Of a stretch of DNA of 64,000 bases, positions 45,527-64,000 are shown piece after piece (the first letter of the stretch is position 1; each line of letters opens with the position of its first letter). The position numbers were made by a program, and so were the translations under genes. The DNA comes from Rheinheimera sp. GTDB taxonomy: Bacteria > Pseudomonadota > Gammaproteobacteria > Enterobacterales > Alteromonadaceae. Location: assembly GCF_030824435.1 (NCBI RefSeq), contig NZ_JAVBXS010000088.1, positions 1 through 64,000 on the forward strand, read 5' to 3'. A model generated the notes under the pieces. That model was not told the origin of the DNA. It did no database searches and was given only the letters and a program-made list of their open reading frames with translations.

Positions 45527-45630
45527 CCACGGCAGCAGACCATGTGGCGATAAAATGAACGGTGTTTGATTTTAAGCTTTTGTTATAGAATAAAAAATCG
45601 CCGTCAGCTTGTAGCCAATTCAACAGTGGG

Positions 45631-46455: not shown

Positions 46456-46524
46456 ACTTTGCCACCCTGCTCTGGATATTTGCTAAAAAATCTTTAACAA
46501 TACCGCTCTTTTTACAAGGAGCGC

Positions 46525-46920
46525 ATGATGTCATTTGGGAAATTAGTTACTGCAACTGCACTGGTTTTGTTATTGGCTGCCTGCCAATCCTCCCCGCTAC
46601 AACAGGTTTATACCGACCCTGTGCCTTATAACCTGACACCAAAACAAATGGAACAAGCCATTCTGGATGCGGGTACCAACCGCGGCTGGCTGATGACACT
46701 TCAGGCACCGGGAAAAATTCATGCAGAACTGAATATACGTTCACATAAAGTCGTGACCATGCTGACTTACAATCCGCAGTCTTTTGCTATTACCTATGTT
46801 GACTCAGTCAATATGGACGCGAAAAAAGGCAAAATTCACCGCCAGTATGGCAACTGGGTGAACAATCTGCGGCAGGATATCCGGTTAAAAATGAATCAGG
46901 CGAGCCTGAGCAACAGATAA
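46525..46920 (+). CDS. Small lipoprotein of unknown function
   Basis: 131 residues. The lipoprotein signal has lipobox LAAC (Cys20), and the mature part has a two-layer-looking pattern (YNLTPKQMEQAILDAG, then ITYVDSVNMD, HRQYGNWVNNLRQD) reminiscent of small periplasmic alpha-beta proteins; no family is assigned. AAGGAGCGC lies before ATGATG, so 46525 or 46528 may start it. Confidence 0.65.
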   Translation: MMSFGKLVTATALVLLLAACQSSPLQQVYTDPVPYNLTPKQMEQAILDAGTNRGWLMTLQAPGKIHAELNIRSHKVVTMLTYNPQSFAITYVDSVNMDAKKGKIHRQYGNWVNNLRQDIRLKMNQASLSNR

Positions 46921-46952
46921 AACAATTCAGCGCAGCAACACAGCTGAACCCG

Positions 46953-46983
46953 AAAACTGCGTATCTTTGCCAGCGCAGTTTTT
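46953..46983. terminator. Terminator between the small lipoprotein gene and the ape cluster end
   Basis: AAAACTGCG (46953-46961) pairs with CGCAGTTTT (46974-46982), with A and T flanks on both sides. It lies between two convergent genes, touches the mipA-like stop and should work both ways. Confidence 0.75.
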
Positions 46984-47794
46984 ACCAGGCGCCGGTTTTC
47001 AGAATTTTCACCACCACAATACCGGCGCTGAGCTGATGTGTTTTGGCATATAACGGGCTGTTGGCAAAAGTGGCATCGTGCAGATAGTCATACCTGCTGT
47101 ACAAAGCAAACCACCAGTGCCCTTGTTGCAGGCTGACACCATTGGCAAAACGCCAACCACTAAAACCAGCTGTGGCGCTGTACGTTGGCCTTTGGATTTG
47201 TTGGTACTCTGGCGCAACCCCATACAAATACTGATGGTAAGCTTTGCTGCTTGCTGCAAGCGACAATACCGACTCCCATGTGAAACCTGCTGCCATTTTT
47301 TGTTGGTAACGCAGCTGAGGTTCAAAGCGCCAGCCAATCCCTGAAGCTTGTTGAAAATCAGTGGCAAAAGCTGCTCTGACAGGTAAACGTAATTGCAGAT
47401 TGGGCGTGAGCTGAACATCCAAAGCCGGGCCAATTTCGGCTATCCAATCCAGCGCCGGCATACCTTGCCTGAGCTGGTTTTTATCATTGTCCACAGCAAA
47501 AGCACCGGCCAGACTCAGGTTCAGCGCCCAGTGGTCGCCTTGAGCCAATAAACCTGTGGCGCCCTGACGGTCAATTTGTAACTGCGCACTGCGGTAACTG
47601 AAATAAGGCACAGGCAACACAAAATGTGCCGACTGAGCAGCGCCGGGATAATGCGGTTGAGCACCGGCCAATACCCCAACACCCAACTGATATTGGCCCT
47701 GTGCTGCCGATGCTGCGCCTGAGGCGCCCGCCAATAACGACGTTATAAATAACAGCACTTTTAATAACGACAGCCCGGGCGGCAGCTTTTGCAT
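46982..47794 (-). CDS. MipA/OmpV-family outer-membrane protein, last gene of the ape run
   Basis: 270 residues: a signal peptide (about 1-30), then a barrel with alternating strands and the MipA/OmpV pattern (YQLGVGVLAGAQPHYPGA, LPVPYFSYR, TYSATAGFSGWRFANG). OmpV proteins are small outer-membrane barrels, some implicated in adhesion or in MltA interaction; here the reading frame begins at the apeR stop (TGATG). It may serve the outer-membrane placement of the pigment. That role is inferred only from its place. Confidence 0.85.
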   Translation of the reverse strand: MQKLPPGLSLLKVLLFITSLLAGASGAASAAQGQYQLGVGVLAGAQPHYPGAAQSAHFVLPVPYFSYRSAQLQIDRQGATGLLAQGDHWALNLSLAGAFAVDNDKNQLRQGMPALDWIAEIGPALDVQLTPNLQLRLPVRAAFATDFQQASGIGWRFEPQLRYQQKMAAGFTWESVLSLAASSKAYHQYLYGVAPEYQQIQRPTYSATAGFSGWRFANGVSLQQGHWWFALYSRYDYLHDATFANSPLYAKTHQLSAGIVVVKILKTGAW

Positions 47795-49047
47795 CAGCTG
47801 TTACCCTGCGCTGTTGTTGTATCGCTCCAGTTGCGGAAAATCAGTGAAGTGTTAATGCCACCAAAAGCAAAGTTATTGCTCATCACATATTGCGCTTGTA
47901 ATTCGCGTGCTGATGTCCTGATATAGTCCAGCTCAGCACAAGCGGCATCCACTTCGGTCAGATTTAAAGTGGGTGCGTACCAGTTGTCACGCATCATCAT
48001 AATGCTGGCCCAACTTTCAATAGCACCACAAGCGCCCAGCGTATGGCCCAGATAACTTTTCAGCGAGCTGATAGGCATCAAAGCGCCAAAGACCTGAGCC
48101 GTAGCCTGAGTTTCCGCCACATCCCCTCTGTCTGTTGCTGTGCCATGGGCATTCACATAGCCAATAGCGTCTGGCGCTAATTCAGCATCCGCCAATGCCA
48201 GTCGCATCGCCTGCTCCATGGTCGGGGCTGAAGGCTGGGTCACATGCAAACCATCGGAGTTGGTGCCAAAACCCACCACTTCGGCGTAAATTTTTGCCCC
48301 ACGGGCCAACGCATGTTCTAACTCTTCCAGAATTAAAGTACCGGCACCTTCCCCTATCACCAGACCATCCCTTTTGCTGTCAAAAGGTCTTGGTGTCAAA
48401 GCTGGTTCAGCATTGCGGGTACTGGTGGCATACAAAGTATCAAATACCGCAGCTTCTGTGACACAAAGCTCTTCAGCACCACCGGCCACCATTAATGTCT
48501 GGCGGCCAAATTTAATAGCTTCGTAGGCATAACCTATGCCTTGTGACGCCGAAGTACAGGCCGAGCTGGTGGTGTAAATACGGCCTTTAATGCCAAAAAA
48601 CACCCCAAGATTGACCGCTGTGGTATGCGCCATCATCTGGATATAACTGGTGGCTGTGACACCGGCCATACTGTGTTGATCCAGCATACGGCCAAAAGCG
48701 CTGATAGGTTCGGTACTGCCGGTGGAAGAGCCATACGCAATACCACAACGACCATCTGTTAAAGCCGGATGTTCAGTTAAACCGGCGTCCAGCAGCGCCA
48801 GTTCGGTCGCGCGGGTGGCCATTAAAGACACCCGGCCCATAGAGCGGGTTAACTTGCGCGAATAATGCGCCGGACGTTCAAAATCCAGCACTGGTGCTGC
48901 CAGGCGGGTGTTTAAATCTGCATAACAATCCCACTGCGGCATATAGCGGGTGGCACTTTTGCCCACACTGATATTCTGCCGGAACGTTGCCCAGTCCTGC
49001 CCCAACGCAGTAATAGCCGACATGCCGGTAACAACCACTCTTTTCAT
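47794..49047 (-). CDS. apeR: Beta-ketoacyl-ACP synthase of aryl polyene synthesis (ApeR-like)
   Basis: 417 residues of the FabF type. The catalytic triad is visible: Cys164 (SSACTSASQG), His in NAHGTATDRGD (about 297) and His in LKSYLGHTLGA (about 333). With ApeO it would elongate the aryl polyene on the ACPs. It starts at the apeQ stop (TGATG) and ends at the mipA-like gene. In E. coli this position is the last ape gene, apeR. Confidence 0.9.
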   Translation of the reverse strand: MKRVVVTGMSAITALGQDWATFRQNISVGKSATRYMPQWDCYADLNTRLAAPVLDFERPAHYSRKLTRSMGRVSLMATRATELALLDAGLTEHPALTDGRCGIAYGSSTGSTEPISAFGRMLDQHSMAGVTATSYIQMMAHTTAVNLGVFFGIKGRIYTTSSACTSASQGIGYAYEAIKFGRQTLMVAGGAEELCVTEAAVFDTLYATSTRNAEPALTPRPFDSKRDGLVIGEGAGTLILEELEHALARGAKIYAEVVGFGTNSDGLHVTQPSAPTMEQAMRLALADAELAPDAIGYVNAHGTATDRGDVAETQATAQVFGALMPISSLKSYLGHTLGACGAIESWASIMMMRDNWYAPTLNLTEVDAACAELDYIRTSARELQAQYVMSNNFAFGGINTSLIFRNWSDTTTAQGNS

Positions 49048-49769
49048 CAGATCATACCGCCGTTCACTGAAATTACCTGCCGGGTAATGTAAGCGGCAGG
49101 CTCAGAACATAAAAAGCTGACTGTTGCCGCCACTTCTTCTGCTGTGCCCATGCGGCGCAGCGGCACCATTTGCAACATCTCATCTATCGGCAAGTCGCTG
49201 ACCATTTCGGTTTCAATGAGACCTGGGGCGACACAATTGACAGTAATTTTGCGTTTGGCCAGCTCCAGCGCCAGCGCTTTGGTGGCGCCCATTAAACCGG
49301 CTTTGGCCGCTGAATAATTCACCTGACCTCTGTTGCCGGCAATACCGGACACAGAAGCAATAGTGACAATACGGCCGCCTTTTCTCAGCTGGATCATTGG
49401 CATCACCAGCGGATGCAACACATTATAAAAACCGTCCAGATTGGTGTGGATCACCTGATCCCAGTCTTGTTCTGTCAGCGCAGGAAAAGCGCCATCGCGG
49501 CTGATACCGGCATTACACACCACCGCATAAAAAGCACCGTGGCTGGCCACATCCTGCTCCAGTATGGCTTTGGCACTGGCGCGGTCGGCCACATCAAACT
49601 GCAATACATGAGATTGCCGCCCCAAAGCACGGATTTGTGCTGCCACCGCTTGCGCACTTGCCACATCACTGCGGCAATGTACTGTCACATCAAAACCATC
49701 TTTGGCTAACTGTAATGCAATAGCACGACCTATTCCGCGGCCCGAGCCTGTCACTAAACAACGTTGCAT
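49047..49769 (-). CDS. apeQ: 3-ketoacyl-ACP reductase (ApeQ-like)
   Basis: A 240-residue short-chain dehydrogenase: nucleotide motif GSGRGIG (about 8-14), NAG, and the Ser-Tyr-Lys set in ASVSGIAG/NYSAAKAG (about 140-157). It would reduce the 3-keto intermediate with NADPH. It starts next to the apeP stop (TAAATG) with AAGGAG just before. Confidence 0.92.
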   Translation of the reverse strand: MQRCLVTGSGRGIGRAIALQLAKDGFDVTVHCRSDVASAQAVAAQIRALGRQSHVLQFDVADRASAKAILEQDVASHGAFYAVVCNAGISRDGAFPALTEQDWDQVIHTNLDGFYNVLHPLVMPMIQLRKGGRIVTIASVSGIAGNRGQVNYSAAKAGLMGATKALALELAKRKITVNCVAPGLIETEMVSDLPIDEMLQMVPLRRMGTAEEVAATVSFLCSEPAAYITRQVISVNGGMI

Positions 49770-50225
49770 TTAAAACTCCTTTAACCAGTCCAGATGATTT
49801 TCTGGTTGAAACACATTTAAATTGGCCTGCACCAGCACAAAGCCGTTGGCCGAAATTTCACATAAAAACACACTTAAGCCAGTGTCTTCACTCACCACTT
49901 TTTCAGCTTTCAGCTGCAATTTTGTTCCCAGCGCAAATTGGCTGACAGCAGGCGCATATTTACGACAACCGAGCAAAAAACCAATTTTTACTTCATTACC
50001 GTTCAACAAAGCATTGGCACCGGCATAACAGGCAATAGTTTGCGCCATATATTCCAGGCCAACATAAGCCGGCACTGCCTGTAAAACATCCTGAAAAAAC
50101 GGGCTGCTACTGCTGATTTCTACTTCGGTTTGTACTGAATTTTCATCAGCAACAATAAAACGGCTGAGTAAAATCATCGGGTGATCATGGGGCAATAACT
50201 GCTCCAGCGCATAACCGCTTATCAT
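49770..50225 (-). CDS. apeP: 3-hydroxyacyl-ACP dehydratase (ApeP-like)
   Basis: 151 residues of the FabZ/hotdog fold with LLPHDHPMILL (His13/His15) near the start and YVGLEYMAQTIACYAG in the middle. With the smaller ApeI (60 kb) it would form the dehydratase that makes each double bond of the polyene. Overlaps apeO by four bases. Confidence 0.85.
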   Translation of the reverse strand: MISGYALEQLLPHDHPMILLSRFIVADENSVQTEVEISSSSPFFQDVLQAVPAYVGLEYMAQTIACYAGANALLNGNEVKIGFLLGCRKYAPAVSQFALGTKLQLKAEKVVSEDTGLSVFLCEISANGFVLVQANLNVFQPENHLDWLKEF

Positions 50226-51469
50226 CGTTGTCTTCTCAAAATAACAGCGGCATTGTTGCCACCAAAAGCAAAAGAATTACTCAGGCATAAGGACAGGGGT
50301 TGTTGTTGCCCGGCCAACACAAAATTCAGTGTTGGCAGTTCTGCATCCGCCGGGTTATCCCGCACCTGAGGCAATAACGCAAAAGCGGCATTATAGTCTG
50401 ACAATAACAACCAGCATAAGGCAGCTTCAATAGCACCGGCAGCACCCAGAGTGTGGCCGGTCATACTTTTAGTGGAACTGGCCGGCACTTTATCTGCGCC
50501 AAGGCGTTGTAACACTGTACTTTCCATAGCGTCATTCAGTGGCGTGGCAGTGCCATGCAAATTGATATAACCCAGTTCGCTGGCGCTGACACCGGCCTGA
50601 GCAAGCGCCTGACGAATGGCCGCTTCTGCACCCCGCCCTTGTGGGTGTGGTGCCGACATATGATAAGCATCAGCTGCAGCACCGGCGCCTGCCAGCTCAA
50701 TCAGCTGCTGAGCGCCCGGTTGCTGCGCTGTTACATCAGCCTGGCGCAACATTAAAAACAGCGCTGCACCTTCACCAATGTTAATGCCGTCCCGACCCTC
50801 TGCAAAAGGCTGACAAAAACCGGCCGCCACAGATTCCAGCGCGGCAAAACCCTGCAAGGTCATACGGCATAACGAATCCACCCCACCCACTATCACAGCA
50901 TCTGCCAAGCCGGAAGTTAATAAATTGCGGGCGCTGATAAGCGCTCTGGCGCTCGATGAACAAGCGGTGGAAATCACATAAGCAGGGCCGCTGACACCGG
51001 CAACTGCAGCAATAAAATGCGCAGGTGCTGCCATTTCCTGCTTTTGATAGTGATAATCCGCAGGCCAGTTACCGCTGTTTAAGCGCTGCTGTAGTGCATC
51101 TTCACCATCGGCAATACCCGAGGTGCTGCTGCCAAGCACGACGGCAATACGCTCAGCGCCATATTGTTGTTTTGCCTGTTGCACCTCAGCGGCAATTTGC
51201 AGATAAGCACAATAAGCCAGCTGGTTATTGCGGCTACTCAGATGGGCAAAAGCAGGGTCTATCTGCGGCAACTTTTCAGTCACGGCACCAACCACCACAG
51301 CTTGCCCGGCCAGCAATAAGTCGTCCCGCCAAACCATGCCAGCTCTGCTGCCGGCCACTGCCGCCTGCCAGACCTGCTGTTTGGAAGCACCCAAAGCACA
51401 ACAAATACCCAGCGCCGCCAATACCGGCGCCTGAGTTGTATCCGCTGTGTTGCACTGCACTTCTGTCAT
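50222..51469 (-). CDS. apeO: Beta-ketoacyl-ACP synthase (ApeO-like)
   Basis: 415 residues of the KAS fold: Cys170 (STACSSSARA), His in NLHGTATPLNDAM (about 306) and TKSMTGHTLGAAGA with the second His (about 340). In E. coli ApeO is the elongating ketosynthase that works with the chain-length factor ApeC. It overlaps its neighbours by four bases on each side. Confidence 0.9.
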   Translation of the reverse strand: MTEVQCNTADTTQAPVLAALGICCALGASKQQVWQAAVAGSRAGMVWRDDLLLAGQAVVVGAVTEKLPQIDPAFAHLSSRNNQLAYCAYLQIAAEVQQAKQQYGAERIAVVLGSSTSGIADGEDALQQRLNSGNWPADYHYQKQEMAAPAHFIAAVAGVSGPAYVISTACSSSARALISARNLLTSGLADAVIVGGVDSLCRMTLQGFAALESVAAGFCQPFAEGRDGINIGEGAALFLMLRQADVTAQQPGAQQLIELAGAGAAADAYHMSAPHPQGRGAEAAIRQALAQAGVSASELGYINLHGTATPLNDAMESTVLQRLGADKVPASSTKSMTGHTLGAAGAIEAALCWLLLSDYNAAFALLPQVRDNPADAELPTLNFVLAGQQQPLSLCLSNSFAFGGNNAAVILRRQR

Positions 51470-52026
51470 AAAAAGTCCTGCTGCAAAGTAGTTAAGCGCA
51501 ACTGGTAATGCGGTTGGGTGATGTCGGTGATTTGGCCAGCCACCGGACCGCCAGCGCCCTGAATTACCAACAGCTGCTGTAATTTACTATCCAGCAACAG
51601 TCGCTGCTGTTGTTTTTCCTGTAACAACAAACCACTGAACCGGGGTTGTAGCGCCGCTACCGGCCATAAACTCCATTGCATCTGCGCTAATAACTGCAGC
51701 GCAAAAGCAGGTTCAGAAAAAGGTGCTTGCCCTTGATGTTGCAGACGGCCATCGGCGGTTAATTCTACCCGCCCCAGCTCCTGCCCCAGCGGCGATAAGG
51801 CCACCAGCAACATTTGCTCCGGCAACAGCTGCACACTGAGTAAAAACTCCTGTTGTTGTTTTGCGGTTTTAAACTGCACCTGCTGCAACAACTGCTGCGA
51901 AGGGCCTGGCCATTGTGTCAGCAGCTGATAACCTCCGCCGCCAAAGGCATAATACAATGGCGGTTTTGGCCATAACTGGCAGGCGCTCAGGCTTAAAGCC
52001 AGCAGCAACAGCAGCACTAAGCGCAT
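51466..52026 (-). CDS. Outer-membrane-type lipoprotein of the ape cluster (DUF3261-like, ApeN position)
   Basis: 186 residues with lipobox LSAC (Cys16) and a Gln-rich, mostly beta mature part, similar to the DUF3261 lipoproteins found at this place in ape clusters. It would take part in export or anchoring of the pigment with the LolA-like and MMPL proteins. It overlaps the oxidoreductase gene by ten bases and apeO by four. Confidence 0.75.
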   Translation of the reverse strand: MRLVLLLLLALSLSACQLWPKPPLYYAFGGGGYQLLTQWPGPSQQLLQQVQFKTAKQQQEFLLSVQLLPEQMLLVALSPLGQELGRVELTADGRLQHQGQAPFSEPAFALQLLAQMQWSLWPVAALQPRFSGLLLQEKQQQRLLLDSKLQQLLVIQGAGGPVAGQITDITQPHYQLRLTTLQQDFL

Positions 52027-53264
52027 ATTTCACTCAGGGTTTGTAAACGTTTTTTGGTGTCAGCCACATAAGGGTTTTGTTGATCCCAGGCATAACCGGC
52101 CAGAATAGAAGAAATCATCTGACTGACTTGCTCCTGCCGTTGTTCGTTAAAAATAATGTTCTGAAAACGGCTGTCGTACCAGGCTTCGACAAACTGGCGG
52201 AAGGTGCTGATGCCATGACGCAGTGGTTTGGTGTATTGTGCATTCCAGTCCACCGCTTCACCACTCAGCTGTTTCAGTACCAGCGGCACCGCAGTGCTGG
52301 CTGAACGCAGCGCTATAGTCACGCCTGACGAAAATACCGGGTCAAGAAATTCACCGGCATTGCCAAGCAGCGCATACCTGTCACCGGCCAAATCGCCAAC
52401 ATTGGCAGAATAACCAACCAGACTGCGTACCTCGTTAATGGCTTCTGCATTGGCCAATAACAACGATAAATCAGCTTCGTCTGCCACTTTTTGCCATAAC
52501 GAAGCAGCTGCGGTGTCAGTGGCGGCAAAACGTTCCGTGGCGCCAACCACACCTAAACTGGCAGTGCCGTCGCTAAAAGGGATCAACCAATACCAGACAT
52601 CGTGCAAAGTGGGATGCACGGTAATTAAAATTTTATTGCGGTCAAACCCTGGGTCTGTGATGCCATCACGGATATGACAAAAACAGGCCTGACGCACCGG
52701 GAAACCGGACGGAGTTTCCAAATCTAATAATTTCGGCAACACCCGGCCAAAACCTGAAGCGTCCAGCACAAATTTACAGTTGAGCAAGCGGCTTTCACCC
52801 TGCTCATTGTTGACCTTTAACTGCACCAACTCAGCATCAGGGTATAAAAAGTCTGTCACTTCCAGCCCATAACGGATATCCACCCCCTGAGCCGCAGCAC
52901 CATCGGCCAGCAAAGCATCAAAAGCTGCTCTTTTGACCTGAAACGTCGTGCCCGGGCCTTTAGAAAACTTGCGGGTAAAATCAAATTCAGTCCGCATGCC
53001 ATTTTTTAAAAAAGCTGCACCGTTTTTAAACTGAAAACCTAAGCTGTCCGCTTGTTGCTCCAGCCTGTCCAGCAAACCAGCTTCGGCTAAAAACTCCATA
53101 CAATGCGGCAATAAACTTTCGCCAATGGAAAAACGCGGGAAATGGGCTTTTTCTACACAAAGCACTGTTTTACCGGCGCGGCGTAACAAAGCACCGGCAC
53201 AAGCACCGGCAGGCCCGGCGCCAATAATAATCACATCGTATAAAGGTAAAAAATCTTTATTCAT
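52017..53264 (-). CDS. FAD-dependent enzyme with flavin-dependent halogenase motifs
   Basis: 415 residues. FAD-binding GAGPAG (about 15-20), ESLLP (about 49-53), a Lys at 80 in GFQFKNGA, and WYWLIP (224-229), which matches the WxWxIP signature of flavin-dependent halogenases; Lys80 corresponds in place to their catalytic lysine. Geranylgeranyl-reductase-type oxidoreductases share the fold but not this signature. Xanthomonadins are brominated and some flexirubins chlorinated, so halogenation of the aryl head is a direct hypothesis. It is inserted between the ApeM-like and lipoprotein genes, where E. coli has none. Confidence 0.75.
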   Translation of the reverse strand: MNKDFLPLYDVIIIGAGPAGACAGALLRRAGKTVLCVEKAHFPRFSIGESLLPHCMEFLAEAGLLDRLEQQADSLGFQFKNGAAFLKNGMRTEFDFTRKFSKGPGTTFQVKRAAFDALLADGAAAQGVDIRYGLEVTDFLYPDAELVQLKVNNEQGESRLLNCKFVLDASGFGRVLPKLLDLETPSGFPVRQACFCHIRDGITDPGFDRNKILITVHPTLHDVWYWLIPFSDGTASLGVVGATERFAATDTAAASLWQKVADEADLSLLLANAEAINEVRSLVGYSANVGDLAGDRYALLGNAGEFLDPVFSSGVTIALRSASTAVPLVLKQLSGEAVDWNAQYTKPLRHGISTFRQFVEAWYDSRFQNIIFNEQRQEQVSQMISSILAGYAWDQQNPYVADTKKRLQTLSEICA

Positions 53265-53272
53265 CGGTTTGG

Positions 53273-55579: not shown

Positions 55580-56196
55580 TGCGTAGCACCTGTGCTGAGC
55601 TGAATGTCACTGCGGTTGCCTGATATTTCCAGCAAGGTGATTTGTTGCAGTTTGTCAGCACCACAAAGCGTGATATGGCGGTAAAAATCTGTCAGAGGTT
55701 TTTTCAGCGGTTGTAGTTGTACACAATGTTCTGGCATTTGTTGCAACACAAAATGCTGTTGTAAAAAAGTAATGTCCTGTTGCATTACCGCCAGCATCAG
55801 GCTGCCAATCAGCTCTGTGCCAGGTTGCAGTTTTAATGCACCATCAAGCTGTTGCTGCACACCACTGTTATCCAGCACTATCTGTTGTTGCACCGGTTTT
55901 TCGGTGATCCACAGCAGACGTTTTGTCTCAAGCTGCAAATATCCGCTGCTTTGCAGGGGCTTTTTTAAACCGCGGATCCATTTTTGCTGCTGAAAATAAA
56001 ACCGGCCTTGTAGCATCTGCCACTTTGCCAACTGCGCTGGTGCAGAAACGGCAGGTGCTGTTAGTGCTGCTGTGCTGGTTTTAGCTGTGCTGGCATTAGC
56101 GGTGTTGGTTTTTATAACTTTGTCACTGGCAGTGGCCGCCACTGGCCATAACAATATCAGCAGCGCAGCTGCAACAACCTGGTGCCACAACCTCAT
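55576..56196 (-). CDS. LolA-like periplasmic carrier (ApeL position)
   Basis: 206 residues with a signal peptide (about 1-23) and a LolA-like half-barrel: RFYFQQQKWIRGLKKPLQSSG, in part, and YLQLETKRLLWITEKPVQQ. LolA carries lipidated proteins to the outer membrane; ape-cluster versions probably carry the pigment lipid. The mature start is rich in Thr/Ala/Ser. It overlaps neighbours by four bases on both sides. Confidence 0.8.
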   Translation of the reverse strand: MRLWHQVVAAALLILLWPVAATASDKVIKTNTANASTAKTSTAALTAPAVSAPAQLAKWQMLQGRFYFQQQKWIRGLKKPLQSSGYLQLETKRLLWITEKPVQQQIVLDNSGVQQQLDGALKLQPGTELIGSLMLAVMQQDITFLQQHFVLQQMPEHCVQLQPLKKPLTDFYRHITLCGADKLQQITLLEISGNRSDIQLSTGATQ

Positions 56197-56603
56197 GGCT
56201 GTAAGCCTAATTTTTGCAGCAAAATCAGTGGTGATTCATAACACATTTGCTGGTTTTGCATATCAACAGCCACCTGAATACTGCTGGCTTTGGTCAGGGT
56301 CTGGCCGGATTCAAGATCAATAATACGGTAGTTAATTTTCAATCTGTGTTCCCATTCCACTAAGGTGGCGGTCACTTCAATTTGTTTACCAAAACGGGCT
56401 GAACCGCGGTATTTCAGGTTTAAATCGACAATAGGCCACAAATAACCCGACTGCTGCATTTGTGGATAGTCGTAATCAAAAGTACGCAACAAAGCACAAC
56501 GGGCAATTTCCAGATATTTGACATAATGGCCGTGCCAGACAATCTGCATCGCATCCACATCAAAAAACGGCACTTCAATCACAACACTGGCCTTTTTCAT
56601 CAT
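56193..56603 (-). CDS. apeK: Acyl-ACP/CoA thioesterase of the ape cluster (ApeK-like)
   Basis: 136 residues of the 4HBT hotdog family, with the catalytic region FFDVDAMQIVWHGHYVKYLE (Asp17, His24). It would release or edit the polyene chain. It begins directly at the ammonia-lyase stop with ATGATG. Confidence 0.85.
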   Translation of the reverse strand: MMKKASVVIEVPFFDVDAMQIVWHGHYVKYLEIARCALLRTFDYDYPQMQQSGYLWPIVDLNLKYRGSARFGKQIEVTATLVEWEHRLKINYRIIDLESGQTLTKASSIQVAVDMQNQQMCYESPLILLQKLGLQP

Positions 56604-58208
56604 TTACTCCTGATACAAAGGCCATTGCTGGTGTTGAATAGCATCCACCAGCGACCTTAAATTGCTTTCCAGCGGCCTGTCTTCTGTCACCAGTCCATGT
56701 TCCTGCTGTAATTGCGCCAGCATTTGTTGCAGCTCAGGGATTAAACTCTGTGGTGATAATTCCTGCTGACTAATACGCAGTTGCACCCCTTGTTGCACGG
56801 CCAATAAAGACGCAGCCATCACTTGTTCTGTCAGCTGCAACACCCGCAAACAGTCACGGGCGGCAATAGTACCCATGCTGACTTTGTCCTGGTTATGGCA
56901 TTCGGTTGAACGGGAAAACACACTGGCCGGCATCGTCAGTTTTAACGCTTCCGCTGTCCAGGCGGAGCAGCCAATCTGCACCGCTTTAAAACCATGATTA
57001 ATAAAACGGCGCTCCGGCGCAGCGCCACTCAGATTGGCAGGTAAGCCATTGTTATATTTAGTGTCCATCAGCAAAGCCATTTGCCGGTCGTGCAAATCTG
57101 CCAGGTTGGCCACAGCGGTTTTCATGCTGTCCATCACCATGGCAATGTGGCCACCATAAAAATGGCCCCCATGCAGCACATGTTCACCTATACCATCCAC
57201 TATTGGGTTGTCGTTGGCGCTGTTTAATTCGTTTTCAATAGTGTGGCGAAACCAGGGTAAAGCGTCGCGTAACACGCCAATAATATGCGGTGCACAACGA
57301 ATGGAATACCTGTCCTGCAAACGGTCGGCATTACGCGGATGTTCATAATGATTGAGATCGTGCCGGATCCAGCCCGCCACCTGATTCTGGCCCTGATGCG
57401 GTTTAACACTAAACAGAATTTCATCAAAATGATGGCTGTTGCCTTTCAGTGCCAGGCTCATCAGCGCGGTAATGCGGCTGGATAAGCGTGTCAGATATTC
57501 GGCTCTTTCATAAGCCAGACAAGCCAAAGCTGTCATGACTGCAGTGCCGTTCATGATGGCCAGCCCTTCTTTGGGCCTTAAAGTTAACGGAGTGAGACCA
57601 AGTTCCGCCATCACGTCCAAAGAGCGACGACGTTCACCACGAAACATCACATCCCGTTCACCTATCATGGCGCCCGCCACATAAGAAAGTGGTGTTAAAT
57701 CACCACTGGCACCCACACTGCCTTCTTCCGGAATACAAGGCACTATGTCGTGGTTTAAAAAATCCTGCAGCAGAGTTAACAAATCACGGCTGACACCGGA
57801 ATAACCCTGACTCAAAGAACATAAACGGGTAGCAAGCACAGCGCGGCTTTGGGTTTTATTGAGTTCAGCGCCTAAACCACAACCATGAAAACGGGTTAAA
57901 TGCATTGGTAATTCATACACTTGCGACAGCGGCACTTTCACAGTAACACTGTCGCCATACCCTGTAGTCACGCCATAAATCACACCATCTTCCTGCAGCA
58001 GTTTGTCCAGAAAAGCCACGCCGGCATCAATACGCTGCCAGAAGCTGTGGTCGCTGGTGAGAGTTGCGCTGCATTCAGCACGGGCAAGCGAAGTGATGTC
58101 GTACAAGGATAAACGGCCCTGACCAAAACTCACGGTAGCTTGTGGCTGGCGCTTGGGTCCAGCCATGGTGGTGGAAAATTCAGCCGGAGTAAAAACTGCA
58201 GAAGTCAC
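56604..58208 (-). CDS. Aromatic amino acid ammonia-lyase (probable Tyr/Phe ammonia-lyase)
   Basis: 534 residues of the MIO-dependent lyase family. The Ala167-Ser168-Gly169 triad makes the MIO group; Tyr78 (IYGVTTGYG) and NDNPIVDG (about 333) are conserved. The selectivity pair is Phe107-His108, neither Ser-His (typical HAL), His-Leu (TAL) nor Phe-Leu (PAL). By context it would turn Tyr or Phe into 4-coumarate or cinnamate, the aryl starter of the pigment; a histidine-degrading role is unlikely because no hut genes are near. It starts with GTG overlapping the previous stop (TAGTG). This gene is absent from the E. coli ape cluster. Confidence 0.88.
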   Translation of the reverse strand: MTSAVFTPAEFSTTMAGPKRQPQATVSFGQGRLSLYDITSLARAECSATLTSDHSFWQRIDAGVAFLDKLLQEDGVIYGVTTGYGDSVTVKVPLSQVYELPMHLTRFHGCGLGAELNKTQSRAVLATRLCSLSQGYSGVSRDLLTLLQDFLNHDIVPCIPEEGSVGASGDLTPLSYVAGAMIGERDVMFRGERRRSLDVMAELGLTPLTLRPKEGLAIMNGTAVMTALACLAYERAEYLTRLSSRITALMSLALKGNSHHFDEILFSVKPHQGQNQVAGWIRHDLNHYEHPRNADRLQDRYSIRCAPHIIGVLRDALPWFRHTIENELNSANDNPIVDGIGEHVLHGGHFYGGHIAMVMDSMKTAVANLADLHDRQMALLMDTKYNNGLPANLSGAAPERRFINHGFKAVQIGCSAWTAEALKLTMPASVFSRSTECHNQDKVSMGTIAARDCLRVLQLTEQVMAASLLAVQQGVQLRISQQELSPQSLIPELQQMLAQLQQEHGLVTEDRPLESNLRSLVDAIQHQQWPLYQE

Positions 58209-59167
58209 TATTGGGCATCCTTGTTGTTGGCAGCGCCTGGCTGCTGCCAGAAGTCGTAAAAATTAAACCATTGCAGCGGGTAACGCAGCGCATATTGCTC
58301 CAGCACGCTGGCGTAATGGCGGATATAAGCTTCCAGTGCCTGTTGCCGGCTTTTGCGGGGTAACAGCACCTGCTCAGTCACAGGTTCCAGCGTCAGCTGG
58401 TAAACGTCACCCTGACGCATACAAAACAATAAATGCACCGGACATTCCAGCACACTGGCCAGCACCCATGGTCCTATGGCAAAAGGCGCAGGCGTGCCAA
58501 GAAAAGGCATATACACAGCACGTTCCGGTGCTGTCACCGAAATGCGATCACCCACTATCACAATAAATTCGTTTTGTTCGACCCACTCTTTTAACTGCAT
58601 CACCAGCACAGGGTTAATGCTGTCGACCTGAATTAAGTTAATTTCCACCTGCGGGTTGGTCTGGCGCAACGCTTTGTTAAAAGCGGCGGCATGGCGGGTA
58701 AACACCAGCACATGAATACGGCTATTGTATTTACCGGCCGACATAGCACGGCATAATTCCAGGTTGCCCAAATGGCTGCCAATCAACACGCCACCTTTGC
58801 CGGCGGCCACTAAATCAGCAAACTGCACCTGGCCTTGTTGCTGAATGTTGTCAGCAGGAATGCGCCCAAGCCAGCCATCAATTTTGGCCAGTGCTTCCAG
58901 CGCAAAACTATAAAAATGCTGATAAGCCTGGCGGTAACCCGGCGTCTTCTGAAAAGGACTTTGTGGCCCAAGTTGCTGATGCACTTTGGTTAAAAACTGC
59001 AAAGACGCATCACGGCCACGGCGATTGGTGCAAACGAAATACCAAAGCACAGGCACAAGAGTAAGTAAAATCAGAAACTTACCGCCAAGACGATAACAAA
59101 ACAGCAAAAACCTGATGCCGCTGTAACTGCCACTTTCCTGCTGTGTTGCCCAGTGTTGCTGTTGCAT
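58208..59167 (-). CDS. Lysophospholipid-type acyltransferase of the ape cluster
   Basis: 319 residues with an N-terminal hydrophobic anchor (about 20-45) and an LPLAT domain: GSHLGNLELCRAM (the HxxxxD/E site, His and Glu, about 130-142) and GDRISV (about 208). In E. coli this domain is fused to the GT2 domain in ApeJ; here it is separate. The ATG 59167 overlaps the GT2 stop (TAATG) with AGGAAA upstream; a longer frame to 59194 has no site. Confidence 0.82.
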   Translation of the reverse strand: MQQQHWATQQESGSYSGIRFLLFCYRLGGKFLILLTLVPVLWYFVCTNRRGRDASLQFLTKVHQQLGPQSPFQKTPGYRQAYQHFYSFALEALAKIDGWLGRIPADNIQQQGQVQFADLVAAGKGGVLIGSHLGNLELCRAMSAGKYNSRIHVLVFTRHAAAFNKALRQTNPQVEINLIQVDSINPVLVMQLKEWVEQNEFIVIVGDRISVTAPERAVYMPFLGTPAPFAIGPWVLASVLECPVHLLFCMRQGDVYQLTLEPVTEQVLLPRKSRQQALEAYIRHYASVLEQYALRYPLQWFNFYDFWQQPGAANNKDAQ

Positions 59168-59907
59168 TAGCTGGTTTTCCTGCATTTGCGCCATAACAAC
59201 CAGGGCAAACGTTTTAACATGCCAAAAAACAATCTGCTGTGCATTTTGCTGATCAACCAGTTATCCCGCAGCACCCTAAAATGTGAACGGCCCCCTTCAG
59301 GGTAAATCACTTTGGTGGGCACAAACACCACCGGCACTTGTTGCCAATACAAACGCACCATCACTTCAATATCAAAATCCATACGAAGGCCCGGTTTTTT
59401 GCTGGCAAATAACTGCATACAAGAGGCCAGCGGATAGACCCGAAAGCCACACATAGTGTCTTTGACACTAAAACTTAAAGTTTCAACCCAAACCCAGAAG
59501 TGCGTGATGTAACGGCCAATTTTACGGCCTGTAGGAATGGAGTCGTCATAAACCGGCGCGCCGCTGACCAGCGCCAGCGGCTGCTCTAAGGCTTTTTGCC
59601 ACAACAGTGGAATGTCGGCCAGGTTATGTTGACCATCTGCGTCCACCTGCAGTGCATGGCTAAAACCGCGCTCAAAGGCCCGGTTTAAACCGGCCATCAC
59701 AGCGCCGCCTTTGCCAAGATTCTGCGGTAAAGTCAAAAGCTCCATAGCCGGCACTTGGGTGGCAAGCGCTGCCAGCTGTGCTTTGGTGGGTGCGTCGGAG
59801 CCATCATCCACCACAATAATGGGCAACTCAAACTGCAACAAAGACCTGACAGTAGCGGCAATAGTGTCGGGGTGGTTATACACCGGAATGACAAAACAGC
59901 GTTTCAA
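59167..59907 (-). CDS. Family 2 glycosyltransferase-like protein of the ape cluster
   Basis: About 246 residues of the GT-A fold: VIPVYNH at the start, VVDDGSD (about 32-38), QVDADGQH with the DxD motif (about 87-94) and a central GGAVMAG. It would glycosylate or transfer a sugar-phosphate to build the anchor of the polyene lipid. The strongest start is TTG at 59907, which overlaps the apeI stop (TTGA) with GGAG upstream and gives the family-like beginning (M)KRCFVIPVYNH; ATG 59922 is the alternative. It corresponds to the first half of the E. coli ApeJ. Confidence 0.82.
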   Translation of the reverse strand: MKRCFVIPVYNHPDTIAATVRSLLQFELPIIVVDDGSDAPTKAQLAALATQVPAMELLTLPQNLGKGGAVMAGLNRAFERGFSHALQVDADGQHNLADIPLLWQKALEQPLALVSGAPVYDDSIPTGRKIGRYITHFWVWVETLSFSVKDTMCGFRVYPLASCMQLFASKKPGLRMDFDIEVMVRLYWQQVPVVFVPTKVIYPEGGRSHFRVLRDNWLISKMHSRLFFGMLKRLPWLLWRKCRKTS

Positions 59908-60254
59908 ACCACCTGCTCCCATTTTAACCGGCCCGACGCTACTTTATTGCCGTCAAGCCAATAACAAAAAGTGCTGGTGTCGGCTTTTTGTTGTTGTAAT
60001 TCAAGGCTGATTTGACAACCAGGCTGCACCATATGCTGAAACTTCAACACTTCAACCGCCAGCACGGCACGCTGCCCCATCAGCAACTGCTGACTAAATT
60101 GCACTGCCCAGTCCAGCTGCGCCACACCAGCCAATACCGGCGCGCCGGGAAAATGGCCCTGGAAATAATGCAAATCAGCATTGATGTCCAGCAGCAAGGT
60201 AACACCTTGCCCTGTCTGTTGTTGCTGCAAAATGGTTGGAAACAGTTTATTCAT
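59904..60254 (-). CDS. apeI: Small 3-hydroxyacyl-ACP dehydratase subunit (ApeI-like)
   Basis: 116 residues, hotdog fold, with the FabA/FabZ motif YFQGHFPGAPVLAGVAQ (His34). In E. coli ApeI and ApeP form a heterodimeric dehydratase. It overlaps apeH by four bases. Confidence 0.88.
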   Translation of the reverse strand: MNKLFPTILQQQQTGQGVTLLLDINADLHYFQGHFPGAPVLAGVAQLDWAVQFSQQLLMGQRAVLAVEVLKFQHMVQPGCQISLELQQQKADTSTFCYWLDGNKVASGRLKWEQVV

Positions 60255-61681
60255 GCTAAAAACAATAACTCCAGCGCCTGACGTGGCAATTTGCCCTGGG
60301 CGTTAAAAGGTAACTGCGTTGGATAACAAAAACGTCTTGGTAATAACACGGTATCAAAACGTAACGCCAATTTCTGTCGTATCTGCTGATTCAGCTGAAA
60401 TTTGCCAAGCTGCTCCAGCAAATCACGGCCTTGTGTATTTAACAATACCACCAGCGTCAGTTGTGGCCTTGAAGCCGCGCTACGCCCCGGCAATACCAGT
60501 GCTACCGCTTTTTCCACATAAGGCAATTCGGTACAACAAAGCTCAACTTCACCCAGCGCCAGCCGTTTTTCCGCCAGTTTGACAATACGGTCGGCCCGGC
60601 CTTGCAGGCTAAACTGCGAAGGCGAAATAAAACTCACCAGATCGGCAGTGGCAAACCAGTTTTCATCCGGCAAATAAGGCGATTTTAACCACAAACAACC
60701 TTGTTCATCCTGACGCAGTTGCAGGCCGGTAAATGCCTGCCAGGCCGGGTTTGGTGTATCTTGCTGGTACTGACGCCAGCCAATACCACCGGTTTCGGTG
60801 CTGCCATAAATTTCCAGCGGCGCCAGGCCAGTCTGCTGATAAAACTTTGCCGCGTCTGCGCTGGCCAAAGGCCCGCCAGAGCTAAAAACACCAATAAACT
60901 GCTGCTTGTGCTCCGGATACTGCGGCAATAACTCAACAACATCATCATAACGGCATAAATGCGCCGGACTGCTGATAAGCAACACCGGCATCTGATAACG
61001 GCTCAGCGCCAGCCATTGCCCGGCAAAATGCACAGTGTCACGCGCCAAAGTCCAGCCAGAGCTCAGTGGCCATAACAGCCGGAATAACAAACCATAAATA
61101 TGCTGCGGCGGCACTGTGGCAGCCACCAGCAGATGAGTGTTGCTGTTTTCGGATTGAGTGCTGTCGGATGGACGGCCTAGCTCAGCAAAAGTGGCCGATA
61201 ACACCGCTATTTCACGTTGCAATTGCCATAACTTTTTATAAACCAGCTTAGGTTCACCACTGGAGCCTGAGGTAAAAAACACCAGCTCTGCCAAAAGCGG
61301 CAACTGACATGCAGCTGTGCCTGGCTGCTGATTTCCGATACTGCAGGTAACAGGCGCAGGCAGATCGGCACAAAGCTTATCGTCACAGAGCTGAATATCG
61401 GCAGATAAACCGGCTTGGGCCAGGGTATCGGGTAATCCGTTTGGCGCCAGTATCACGGTTTTACCTGCTTGCAGCAGCGCAAATAACCACAAGGTAAAAC
61501 AATAACTGTCTGACTGATACAACAACACCCTCTGCCCTTGCAGCTGCTCTGCCTGTTGTTTACAGGCCGCCAGTTGCGTCAGAAATTCAACCACTGTCAC
61601 AGCAGCTGTGTTGTTGTTTTTGTCAGATAAAAACAGCGGTTGTTGTAAAGAAGGCCAGCTAAAGTGCCAGAATTCAGCCAT
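60251..61681 (-). CDS. apeH: AMP-dependent aryl-acid:ACP ligase (ApeH-like)
   Basis: 476 residues of the adenylate-forming family: phosphate loop VFFTSGSSGEPKLVYKK (about 136-152), EIYGSTETGG (about 292-301), ATADLV (about 345) and GRADRIVKLAEKRL (about 357-370) with the C-terminal Lys region. It should activate the aryl acid (probably 4-coumarate from the neighbouring lyase, or 4-hydroxybenzoate) and load it on ApeE/ApeF. It overlaps the membrane-protein gene by eight bases. Confidence 0.9.
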   Translation of the reverse strand: MAEFWHFSWPSLQQPLFLSDKNNNTAAVTVVEFLTQLAACKQQAEQLQGQRVLLYQSDSYCFTLWLFALLQAGKTVILAPNGLPDTLAQAGLSADIQLCDDKLCADLPAPVTCSIGNQQPGTAACQLPLLAELVFFTSGSSGEPKLVYKKLWQLQREIAVLSATFAELGRPSDSTQSENSNTHLLVAATVPPQHIYGLLFRLLWPLSSGWTLARDTVHFAGQWLALSRYQMPVLLISSPAHLCRYDDVVELLPQYPEHKQQFIGVFSSGGPLASADAAKFYQQTGLAPLEIYGSTETGGIGWRQYQQDTPNPAWQAFTGLQLRQDEQGCLWLKSPYLPDENWFATADLVSFISPSQFSLQGRADRIVKLAEKRLALGEVELCCTELPYVEKAVALVLPGRSAASRPQLTLVVLLNTQGRDLLEQLGKFQLNQQIRQKLALRFDTVLLPRRFCYPTQLPFNAQGKLPRQALELLFLA

Positions 61682-62213
61682 GTTTTTTCACCTGTTGGCG
61701 CACCAGCCACTCCAGGCCCATTAACAGGCCCATCAGGGCGTATGAAATGGCGCCGTTGTACCACAGCCACCACTGCCAGTTGCCATACCAGGCTAAGCCT
61801 GCTGCCACAGTGCCGTTGAACAAAAAAAACAGGCACCAGACCTGGGTGACTTTACGGGTATAACGCACACCGGATTCCGGCAAATCCCCTTCCATCAGCC
61901 TGGCAACACGTTCAATCACTGTGGGCGGGAAATACAAGGACCAGCCAAATAACAACAACAAACCAGCGTTGATCCAAACCGGGTAATACAACAACGCCAG
62001 TTCAGTTTGTCCGGCCAGCAAGGCCAGTGTCAGCAGCAGCAAAGTCAGGGCAGCAAAACCACGTTGGCTCTGCTGTTCTTTGTTGTTAAATATCCGCAAC
62101 ACTAACAACAGCACAAGCGGCACAGGCGCCAGCCAGAGCCAGTGGTAACTGACCATCACAAAAACCCACAGCGGATATAACAGCGTGGCCAACACCAACA
62201 AAAATTTTTTCAC
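61674..62213 (-). CDS. Inner-membrane protein of the ape cluster (COG4648-like, ApeG position)
   Basis: 179 residues with about five hydrophobic segments and the conserved middle ARLMEGDLPESGVRYTRKVTQ (in part, about 104-122). Members occur in aryl polyene clusters beside the ACP genes, but their role is not known. Confidence 0.78.
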   Translation of the reverse strand: MKKFLLVLATLLYPLWVFVMVSYHWLWLAPVPLVLLLVLRIFNNKEQQSQRGFAALTLLLLTLALLAGQTELALLYYPVWINAGLLLLFGWSLYFPPTVIERVARLMEGDLPESGVRYTRKVTQVWCLFFLFNGTVAAGLAWYGNWQWWLWYNGAISYALMGLLMGLEWLVRQQVKKHG

Positions 62214-62224
62214 TGCGGCTAAAA

Positions 62225-62473
62225 TCAGGCTTGTGACAAGGCAAACACTTCGTCAACCACATGGCCAACAGTGCGTACTTGTTTAAAAGCTTCAGGTTCT
62301 ATTTTGCGGCCTGTCAGTTCACGTAGTTTCACCACCAGATCCACAGCATCAATGCTGTCTAAATCCAGATCCTGATACAAATGGGCATCCGGGTGAATTT
62401 GCGCTGCATCCAGTTCAAACTCGTCCACCAGAATTCTGGTTAACAGGCTCAGTACTTCTTCTTTAGTTTTCAT
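62225..62473 (-). CDS. apeF: Acyl carrier protein (ApeF-like)
   Basis: An 82-residue ACP; the 4'-phosphopantetheine attachment site is Ser40 in DLDSIDAVD. The start 62473 has GGAGAA upstream; the frame runs on to 62533 but would overlap apeE without a site. It is separated from apeE by a single base. Confidence 0.93.
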   Translation of the reverse strand: MKTKEEVLSLLTRILVDEFELDAAQIHPDAHLYQDLDLDSIDAVDLVVKLRELTGRKIEPEAFKQVRTVGHVVDEVFALSQA

Positions 62474-62474
62474 G

Positions 62475-62741
62475 TCAGTTCTCCACCACTGCTTGCTGCA
62501 TGATATAAGCCGCCAGATTGTTAATACTGGCAAAATGCTGTTGGGTTTGTTTTTCGTTGGCGTCTATTTTGATGTTGTAACGTTTTTTAATCGCCAACCC
62601 CAGTTCCAGCGCATCAATTGAATCCAGCCCAAGGCCTTCAACAAAAAGCGGGGCGCCATCCTCTATATCATCAGCACTGATATCTTCTAATTCGAGGCTG
62701 CTAATAATCAGTTGTTTAAGTTCTGCTTTCAGTTGTTCCAT
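62475..62741 (-). CDS. apeE: Acyl carrier protein (ApeE-like)
   Basis: An 88-residue ACP with the attachment Ser41 in GLDSIDALE. In E. coli ApeE carries the growing aryl polyene. It overlaps apeD by 26 bases. Confidence 0.93.
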   Translation of the reverse strand: MEQLKAELKQLIISSLELEDISADDIEDGAPLFVEGLGLDSIDALELGLAIKKRYNIKIDANEKQTQQHFASINNLAAYIMQQAVVEN

Positions 62742-63507
62742 GAGTTGTCATTACCTGATGATAAAAAGTTTCTAATTCCCGACTGAGTTGCCGCGCTGCC
62801 AAAGACGCCGATTCTTGCTGCAAAAATGGCTGAATATCAATTTCCTTCAGCACCTGAATACTTAAGGTTGGCCTTTGTGCCGGCACCTGATACCAGGCTT
62901 CCTGTTTGGTTAAGGTAGTGGGTTTGCATTGAATAAAACAAGCGAAAAAATTACAACCAGTACGCAACGCAATATTGGCGGCACCACGCTGAAAATGTAG
63001 TGCCACACCTGGTGTGGTGCGGGTTCCTTCCGGAAAAATAATTAAGGTATTGCCACTTTTTAACGAAGCGGCACAGTCCTGCAACAATAAATCCGGATCA
63101 GCATTGGTTAAATAACCAGTGGACTGAATAACCCCCCGCATAAATGGGTTGCGAAACAGCTGCGCTTTCACCACACAGTCGGCATGGGGCAACATCGAAA
63201 TCAGCGCCACCACATCAATCAGACTGGGGTGATTGGCTATCAGAATTTTGCCGCGGCTGGCGGCCAGCTGTTTTTTGTCCGGGAAATTAAAATGAAAAAC
63301 CCCCACCAGGCGCATCAGACTAATAAAAAATTTAAAACTGCGGTGCACTGTATAACGGGCAACAATACGGCGCTTAGTGGCATTTTGAATAAACAACCGT
63401 TGCACCGGAAATAACAACAACGACAACACCAGGCCACCTATCCCAAAAACACTAAAACAAAAGCCGGTGGCCAGCACCCGGTAACCGTGATTAAGCTGTT
63501 GCCACAT
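62716..63507 (-). CDS. apeD: 1-acylglycerol-3-phosphate-type acyltransferase (ApeD-like)
   Basis: 263 residues of the PlsC fold: an N-terminal helix (about 20-42), NHPSLIDVVAL (HxxxxD, about 93-103) and FPEGTRTTPG (about 162-171). It would transfer the aryl polyene or a fatty acid to the lipid anchor. The ATG 63507 follows GGAGG; the frame extends to 63537 as GTG. It overlaps apeC by 17 bases. Confidence 0.87.
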   Translation of the reverse strand: MWQQLNHGYRVLATGFCFSVFGIGGLVLSLLLFPVQRLFIQNATKRRIVARYTVHRSFKFFISLMRLVGVFHFNFPDKKQLAASRGKILIANHPSLIDVVALISMLPHADCVVKAQLFRNPFMRGVIQSTGYLTNADPDLLLQDCAASLKSGNTLIIFPEGTRTTPGVALHFQRGAANIALRTGCNFFACFIQCKPTTLTKQEAWYQVPAQRPTLSIQVLKEIDIQPFLQQESASLAARQLSRELETFYHQVMTTHGTTESRT

Positions 63508-64000
63508 AAGGCCTCCGTTGCCATTGCCAGCTGGCACTTTGGGTCCGGATCACAGAGCCTGACTGCTCAGAATACAAAAAGCTTTTTAGTGCCTGCACTT
63601 CATCCTGATGCTGTTGCAAGGGGTTAGGGTAAACGGCAGCAGCCTGAGCGCCATATTGTTGCCCGCAAGCATGTGGCGCCCCGCCCTGATACTGCAGCCG
63701 CACCGCCAGACCTTCGTGTTTTGATAATAACAAAGCCGCGGCCTGCGCCTGTGCCGGCTGTTGTTCAAAACATTGATACAACTCAGGCACCGGCTGGTCA
63801 GCATACACCACCAACACTTCATCAACTTCAGGGTCCAGCATTAAGCCAACAGCTTCCAGCAGCGCATAATGCAAACTGCTGTCGCCACCGGCAACGGACG
63901 AATGGGCCGCCTGATGCTGCTGAAAAATACTGTATTGGCCCACAATGGCATTGTGCACTGATAAGGCAAACTGAGTGGGTGACAAAGCTTGTTGTTGCAC
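63491..64000 (-). CDS. apeC: Chain-length-factor-like ketosynthase (ApeC-like), cut by the window end
   Basis: The last about 169 codons of a beta-ketoacyl synthase-like protein, whose 5' end lies beyond the window. LSPTQFALSVHNAIVGQYSI is the family's conserved stretch. The active-site region cannot be checked in full. In E. coli ApeC pairs with ApeO and sets chain length. The frame has no convincing start inside the window. Confidence 0.75.
   Translation of the reverse strand: MQQQALSPTQFALSVHNAIVGQYSIFQQHQAAHSSVAGGDSSLHYALLEAVGLMLDPEVDEVLVVYADQPVPELYQCFEQQPAQAQAAALLLSKHEGLAVRLQYQGGAPHACGQQYGAQAAAVYPNPLQQHQDEVQALKSFLYSEQSGSVIRTQSASWQWQRRPYVATA

Follow-up and report, generated by a model that had tools for sequence, protein, structure and literature searches.

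An ammonia-lyase-bearing aryl polyene gene cluster in Rheinheimera, predicted to use a coumarate starter and probably to yield a halogenated pigment

Aryl polyenes are yellow membrane pigments. They have been called among the most widespread bacterial secondary metabolites (PMC8253772, PMC8358021), and one of their described gene clusters is apeA to apeR of Escherichia coli CFT073. Other described systems combine an aryl polyene with further parts. In the bromoalterochromides of Pseudoalteromonas (altA to altN), the aryl polyene moiety is joined to a peptide made by a nonribosomal peptide synthetase (NRPS); according to a review, the lyase AltA converts tyrosine to coumarate (its knock-out halts production and coumarate restores it), and deletion of altN abolishes bromination (PMC5577590). 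In the flexirubin system of Chitinophaga, the tyrosine ammonia-lyase FlxA makes the aryl polyene starter, and the product is esterified with a dialkylresorcinol. The arcuflavin cluster of Azoarcus encodes a halogenase (arcA), an MltA-interacting protein (arcC, with arcB between), and a separate acyltransferase (arcD) and glycosyltransferase (arcE) (PMC3949708); its starter comes via a XanB2-type chorismate enzyme, and its gene table lists no lyase. Here we compare these systems with a cluster found in a 64,000-base stretch of Rheinheimera sp. DNA (the window), which comprises bases 1 to 64000 of the 83,500-base contig NZ_JAVBXS010000088.1.

The cluster is a minus-strand run of 20 genes (46982 to 64258; Table 1), of which 19 lie entirely inside the window (46982 to 63537), while the last, apeC, extends beyond the window end and is completed on the same contig. 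An earlier note, made without database searches, had read these genes as an aryl polyene cluster in the order apeC to apeR, and both the Pfam families and the gene order of E. coli (Table 1 of PMC8253772) bear this out. A single run holds the pair of ketosynthase and chain-length factor (ApeO/ApeC) together with ApeH, ApeI, ApeP, ApeQ, and acyl carrier proteins (ACPs), the combination by which an aryl polyene cluster is recognized. By Pfam, two full ketosynthases and a protein with an N-terminal ketosynthase domain (apeC) are accompanied by ApeP- and ApeI-type dehydratases, a pair of ACPs, two acyltransferases, and single genes for a ketoreductase, an AMP ligase, a glycosyltransferase, a thioesterase, and a DUF3261 protein. 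From apeC to apeR, the window thus agrees with E. coli CFT073 in gene families and in their order, including two ACPs, two dehydratases, three ketosynthase-type proteins, and ApeL, ApeM, and ApeN. Unlike E. coli, it has an aromatic ammonia-lyase gene between apeJ and apeK, a flavin-dependent halogenase-like gene between apeM and apeN, a gene for a MipA/OmpV-family protein after apeR, and an ApeJ divided between two genes that overlap by 28 bases, all features that the earlier note had recognized and that Pfam confirms; the run also has no gene before apeC (ApeA was not searched for). We consider it likely that the product of this complete, lyase-bearing cluster is an aryl polyene lipid that starts from coumarate, is unmethylated and probably halogenated, and is exported through the usual ApeL, ApeM, and ApeN.

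To describe the lyase, the halogenase-like enzyme, and MipA as three additions to the E. coli pattern, as the earlier note had done, is literally true but misleading, because the lyase is the rule in the related loci we sampled. We made profiles from the window genes and 36 named loci and searched with them both the named loci and a set of 80 from the host's taxonomic order, hand-picked for spread over families among the ApeP matches listed (an ApeP match was found in 187 of 394 genomes of that order). The two sets share at least two loci (L070 = L004, L108 = L026), and since the named set had been fetched via the lyase, only the hand-picked set was used to count its frequency. A lyase occupied the slot between apeJ and apeK in 60 of the 74 hand-picked loci showing that slot, and the 14 loci without it fell into groups f3 (6), f5 (1), f18 (5), and f27 (2). 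The order from apeC to apeR, whose recurrence in related genomes the earlier note had proposed as a check, was present in 33 of the 36 named loci, the exceptions being one locus cut by a contig end (L026) and two with a different, compact cluster (L027 and L028).

The other departures from E. coli were also widespread, to varying degrees. A halogenase gene was present in 34 of 75 sampled loci, at three positions, and it lay between apeM and apeO in all 34 named loci where both were visible. Of 74 hand-picked loci, 56 had a fused ApeJ and 17 a split one. MipA followed apeR in 17 of the 34 named loci showing apeR and was found in 6 of the 78 hand-picked loci with that gene, in two of them on the opposite strand. 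Across both sets, 106 loci showed apeC, apeM, and apeR; 65 carried halogenase and lyase (every halogenase locus among them), 27 the lyase alone, and 14 neither. Outside the host's taxonomic order, one locus (L181) had a halogenase and no match to the lyase or ApeM. In a tree built from ApeO, ApeQ, and ApeR, lyase presence changed state 2 times, compared to at least 11 in 200 label shuffles, which suggests that it tracks the line of descent, although this was a quick tree that used no mixture model, carried a long-branch warning, and left four rows (cut loci) out of the lyase count; because it is unrooted, gain and loss of the lyase look alike on it.

Lyase-bearing aryl polyene clusters of Rheinheimera, Pseudoalteromonas, Idiomarina, Colwellia, Thalassotalea, and other bacteria have the same genes in the same order as the window, with a halogenase-like gene (57 to 90% identical) between apeM and apeN, and differ from it in MipA, which part of them have, and in little else. 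The closest named lyase loci were those of Rheinheimera sp. 4Y26 and UBA8519 (both 93% identical). Vibrio fischeri presumably has a lyase-bearing cluster as well. Aryl polyene clusters of Pseudoalteromonas have been published from antiSMASH in accounts whose passages on them do not mention a lyase (PMC9966250, PMC11573776), and our literature search returned nothing on point for aryl polyenes with an ammonia-lyase (Vibrio included), in Rheinheimera, or in halogenated or chlorinated form. Judged by its gene content, the window cluster is a complete, lyase-bearing aryl polyene type that is common in the host's taxonomic order; the "added" genes are ordinary for related bacteria and each has a precedent, making this a new example of a known cluster type.

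We examined the likely substrate of the lyase in an alignment of 97 sequences (the window lyase and locus matches above 200 bits). All 97 have the ASG triad of ammonia-lyases with a 4-methylideneimidazole-5-one (MIO) group, which lies in the PF00221 domain, and all have HNQD. At the second selectivity motif, Gln marks tyrosine and phenylalanine ammonia-lyases (TAL and PAL) and Glu marks histidine ammonia-lyase (PMC3992019, Fig. S1 legend), and the window lyase has the Gln. We rejected the possibility that it is the housekeeping HutH: it reads NQD where the separate HutH of the same genome reads QED, and it scores 392 against the hutH model cut-off of 539, which the genome's own HutH passes with 593.6.

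Between the two remaining substrates, tyrosine is the likelier on present motifs and relatives, although several observations weigh against it. At motif 1, where a TAL would have His in the first selectivity position, the window lyase has Phe107-His108, and this Phe is PAL-like by the older selectivity rule; Phe-His is found in 91 of the 97 aligned lyases and Tyr-His in 6. The curated TAL models of NCBIfam also score the window lyase below cut-off (BagA_FevW, 405.8 vs 1000; FlxA, 353 vs 700). If the enzyme were instead a PAL, supplying a cinnamate starter with no ring hydroxyl, the Phe would be expected, since PAL enzymes may have it at that position (PMC3992019 legend). However, the second position is His in all 97 sequences, as it is in eight AltA candidates; FlxA, a proven TAL, departs from the motif-1 rule and yet prefers tyrosine about 1000-fold (PMC3992019); and halogenation of a phenol would require the hydroxyl. 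We therefore regard a PAL as quite unlikely, and cinnamate, which the earlier note had named beside coumarate, as the less likely starter.

The AltA candidates are a second kind of lyase, present at eight loci in genomes congeneric with P. luteoviolacea. Downstream of them lie matches to an AMP-ligase, a ketosynthase, and a ketoreductase, as in the published alt table, and seven of the eight loci continue into open reading frames (ORFs) of 1203 to 3032 residues with adenylation-type matches, the stretch at L163 ending before any could appear. NRPS domains were confirmed by Pfam in the single such ORF scanned (L157) and in a far-end stretch (L178). All eight candidates carry YHGCG and NQD, of which GCG and NQD are common to the window lyase, and the two that were scanned with NCBIfam had the same top TAL model as the window lyase, with a near-equal score that was likewise below cut-off. 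On the lyase tree they form a separate long branch. Their identity to the window lyase is just 40 to 44%, and they have Tyr in place of Phe107, both of which weigh against the coumarate reading.

One round of extension, reduction, and dehydration converts 4-hydroxybenzoate to coumarate, so the lyase would alter the source of the starter and spare one round, leaving the skeleton as in E. coli. A further point against coumarate is that ubiC is present in the genome (G000:C47), which makes 4-hydroxybenzoate a live rival starter, supplied by UbiC as in E. coli, with the lyase serving as a side route or a supply top-up. E. coli-type clusters do function without a lyase (PMC8253772), and 94 of the 96 loci with a lyase have kept ApeR, all but the compact L027 and L028, though coumarate would skip the first extension. 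If ApeR is the initiator, as in the X. doucetiae account (PMC8253772), it would fit a coumarate starter less well. In A. baumannii, however, ApeR raises throughput and has roles beyond priming (PMC8358021), with which its retention in lyase loci is consistent, and the Tyr135, Cys164, and Phe202 of that protein have the same numbers in the window ApeR. UbiC-made 4-hydroxybenzoate is also hard to square with a lyase that so regularly holds one slot within a run of overlapping genes, and with AltA, whose candidates resemble the window lyase and which makes an aryl polyene starter (PMC5577590). We find this route unlikely and favor coumarate.

The second distinguishing enzyme, the flavin adenine dinucleotide (FAD) enzyme encoded between apeM and apeN, probably halogenates the pigment with bromine or chlorine, as its motifs, predicted fold, and relatives suggest. 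It has GxGxxG, the catalytic Lys, WxWxIP, and FxxPxxSxG, which we take to be the motifs of flavin-dependent halogenases. Excluding one of 69 locus matches that was not real (18 bits), the Lys is present in 68 of 68 copies, and WxWxIP and FxxPxxSxG are present in 64 of 64 and 61 of 61 of the copies reaching that far. AltN candidates lie directly after the last NRPS gene in two of the four alt loci whose far end was fetched (at L178, a thioesterase domain is part of that NRPS gene); with identities of 42% and 39% to the window enzyme, they share its motifs and group with the aryl polyene enzymes in a tree of 45 self-chosen rows (support 90/95, not starred, with long branches met elsewhere in the tree). 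With an AlphaFold model of the window enzyme (mean predicted local distance difference test score 93, alignment of 27), a fold search of the PDB placed 3nix at the top (template modeling score 0.92 to 0.93, 41% identical). Rows 1 to 40 were 3nix and known halogenases, with hydroxylases from row 41; normalized to query length, scores were 0.85 to 0.86 for PltA (chains C/D), Mpy16, and ChlB4 (chain B) and 0.82 for Bmp2.

Some of these results argue in the other direction. The entry for structure 3nix calls it a flavoprotein/dehydrogenase and names no reaction, the far-end stretches of the other two alt loci (L177 and L180) gave no halogenase match, and arcuflavin is not called halogenated in the account of its halogenase-bearing cluster. 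Along with the varying position of the gene within the cluster, the name of 3nix and the case of arcuflavin would suit a different enzyme, such as a hydroxylase or another oxidoreductase whose target is the head group or the polyene. Yet the Lys and the two longer motifs are kept in every copy long enough to show them, the AltN candidates keep them too, and known halogenases rank above p-hydroxybenzoate hydroxylase in the fold search, which leaves such a role rather doubtful. A halogenated product, which the earlier note had offered as a possibility, is thus favored along with coumarate by homology to the AltN and AltA candidates and by motifs.

The halogenase gene is found elsewhere in the cluster, either after apeR or divergent before apeC, in L106, L107, L117 to L124, L138, L141, L142, and L149. 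Copies from these loci that were included in the tree (L106, L107, L120, L138, L142, and L149) group with the rest, which suggests that the gene moved within the cluster. Across the host's class, 15 of 143 genomes, its own included, match the halogenase at E <=1e-40. We inspected the surroundings of the match in 10 of the other 14, and 9 have ape-type genes, as few as an ACP and MipA at L185 or a glycosyltransferase with an acyltransferase at L189 and as many as near-whole clusters; L184 has no ape gene besides the halogenase within 4.9 kb. The more distant halogenases of L185 to L190 are 30 to 34% identical to that of the window.

An ApeB-like head-group methyltransferase, present in the E. 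coli cluster, was not found in the window's own genome (G000), in a second genome of the genus, or in a further one of the family, and the same search was positive in the other three of the six genomes, with a broken copy in G347. The ring is accordingly predicted to be unmethylated. The broken G347 copy (G347:C1:1698303-1699430) has three stops and lies far from that genome's ape cluster. We also considered whether the halogen replaces the methyl group, so that halogenase and methyltransferase would exclude each other, and found no support for this: 13 loci carry both, and only 0 to 2 of 6 independent tree pairs differ in the methyltransferase. The raw counts do tend toward exclusion, with the methyltransferase present in 13 of 65 halogenase loci and 30 of 41 others, but in these a copy may lie outside the fetched stretch.

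Neither MipA nor the split ApeJ is new, given the arc genes of Azoarcus and given L185 and L186, where MipA directly adjoins the halogenase (by Pfam for L185). The arcuflavin and xanthomonadin clusters share a halogenase gene with the window, and Azoarcus also has its MipA-type gene two places away and separate glycosyltransferase and acyltransferase genes. MipA is thus a genuine but patchy extra, with a precedent in arcC, and its role in the cluster is a matter for guesswork. A dedicated export path, which the earlier note had put forward as a special feature, does not hold up, since ApeL, ApeM, and ApeN are also in the E. coli cluster (PMC8253772).

Reasoning from relatives at every step, with gene content, order, motifs, and a predicted fold as the data, we propose the following pathway. 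The lyase would convert tyrosine to 4-coumarate, which ApeH would load onto ApeE. ApeO/ApeC and ApeR would extend it with malonyl units, with ApeQ, ApeI, and ApeP reducing and dehydrating in each round to give a conjugated polyene, and the flavin enzyme would place Br or Cl on the phenol ring. ApeK would then free the acid, ApeD and both halves of ApeJ would join it to a lipid, and ApeM, ApeL, and ApeN would carry the product to the outer membrane, possibly aided there by MipA. More broadly, there is perhaps an even chance that the E. coli-type start from 4-hydroxybenzoate is the exception in this taxonomic order, with coumarate made from tyrosine as the starter of most clusters and a large share of these, the window's included, making brominated or chlorinated aryl polyene lipids, overlooked because the best-studied strains lack both genes. 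The comparison suggests that the E. coli starter may apply to a minority of clusters in the order, and it predicts that common aquatic bacteria make halogenated aryl polyene lipids, with the enzyme provisionally modeled on AltN.

The window resembles the alt system in its AltA-type lyase, AltN-type halogenase, and predicted aryl polyene moiety, and differs in the remaining genes: alt joins an NRPS peptide to the polyene and has ABC transporter genes, whereas the window has lipid-attachment and Lol/RND-type (resistance-nodulation-division) genes. No NRPS genes adjoin the cluster, the largest ORFs being 768 residues at 44000 to 64000 and 722 residues at 63400 to 79000, with alt NRPSs far longer. 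The likeness to flexirubin lies in the use of a tyrosine ammonia-lyase for the starter; no dar-type (darA, darB) match turned up among the Pfam-scanned genes at 43936 to 65042, the stretch to which that search was limited.

The compact clusters of Pseudoalteromonas luteoviolacea (L027:2214-13189 and L028) consist of C, E, H, I, lyase, K, O, P, and Q, with no matches to lipid-attachment or export genes. We rejected these clusters, which lie near contig starts, as alterochromide loci because they hold no NRPS-sized ORF. Beside the one in L027 lies a gene for a fatty acid cis/trans isomerase. Another compact aryl polyene-like set, L136, has C, E, H, I, K, O, P, and Q and no match to D, F, G, J, L, M, N, or R.

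Table 1. Genes of the Rheinheimera aryl polyene run, in ascending coordinates
Gene and predicted product	Position	Strand	Basis
MipA/OmpV-family outer membrane protein, last of run	46982..47794	-	PF06629 E 1.2e-32
apeR, ketosynthase	47794..49047	-	NF006587 735 bits > cut-off 470; Tyr135, Cys164, Phe202
apeQ, ketoreductase	49047..49769	-	PF13561/PF00106
apeP, dehydratase	49770..50225	-	PF22817 ApeP-like E 3e-20
apeO, elongating ketosynthase	50222..51469	-	PF02801/PF00109; active-site Cys170 in TACSS
apeN, DUF3261, LolB-like lipoprotein	51466..52026	-	PF11659 E 4e-19
Flavin-dependent halogenase-like enzyme, nearest tested kind AltN	52017..53264	-	PF04820 Trp_halogenase E 3e-21; Lys80, WxWxIP from 224, FxxPxxSxG from 306
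apeM, predicted RND-type exporter	53273..55579	-	Place and relatives; no Pfam/NCBIfam match
apeL, LolA-like carrier (weak matches)	55576..56196	-	PF03548 E 0.0013 and TIGR00547 E 2e-7, both below cut-off
apeK, 4HBT thioesterase	56193..56603	-	PF13279 E 7e-11
Aromatic amino acid ammonia-lyase, predicted tyrosine ammonia-lyase	56604..58208	-	PF00221 E 7e-159; MIO ASG 167-169, Phe107-His108, Gln440 in HNQD
apeJ, acyltransferase half (LPLAT)	58208..59194	-	PF03279 E 5e-9
apeJ, glycosyltransferase half (GT2)	59167..59922	-	PF00535 E 3e-19
apeI, dehydratase	59904..60254	-	PF22818 ApeI-like E 2.7e-15
apeH, AMP-forming acyl-ACP synthetase	60251..61681	-	PF00501 E 4e-12; top NCBIfam match 4-coumarate-CoA ligase, 79 bits, below cut-off 334.7
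apeG, membrane protein	61674..62213	-	No Pfam match; placed by order and relatives
apeF, acyl carrier protein	62225..62533	-	PF00550 E 1e-11; Ser60 of listed ORF in DSID
apeE, acyl carrier protein	62475..62741	-	PF00550 E 2e-8; Ser41 in DSID
apeD, lysophospholipid acyltransferase	62716..63537	-	PF01553 E 5e-17
apeC, chain-length factor	63491..64258 (in window to 64000)	-	PF13723 E 4e-59 (full gene); without TACSS-like site

The earlier note had most genes overlapping by 1 to 30 bases, which describes most of the 18 junctions among the 19 complete genes. There are overlaps at 14 junctions, spanning 1 to 28 bases at 13 of these, while at two the genes abut and at two they are separated by gaps of 8 and 11 bases. 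The sole larger overlap, 59 bases between apeE and apeF, is due to a TTG start in the ORF list and would vanish with an internal ATG start for apeF, near 62473, which is the likelier start. Just beyond the window end, a divergent gene (64401 to 65042) has a weak match to a phosphopantetheinyl transferase family (PF01648, E 7e-4, below cut-off). At the other end, the plus strand adjoining the cluster (43936 to 46455) encodes DUF484, phage-integrase-family (XerC-like), and solute-binding proteins and is ordinary by look.

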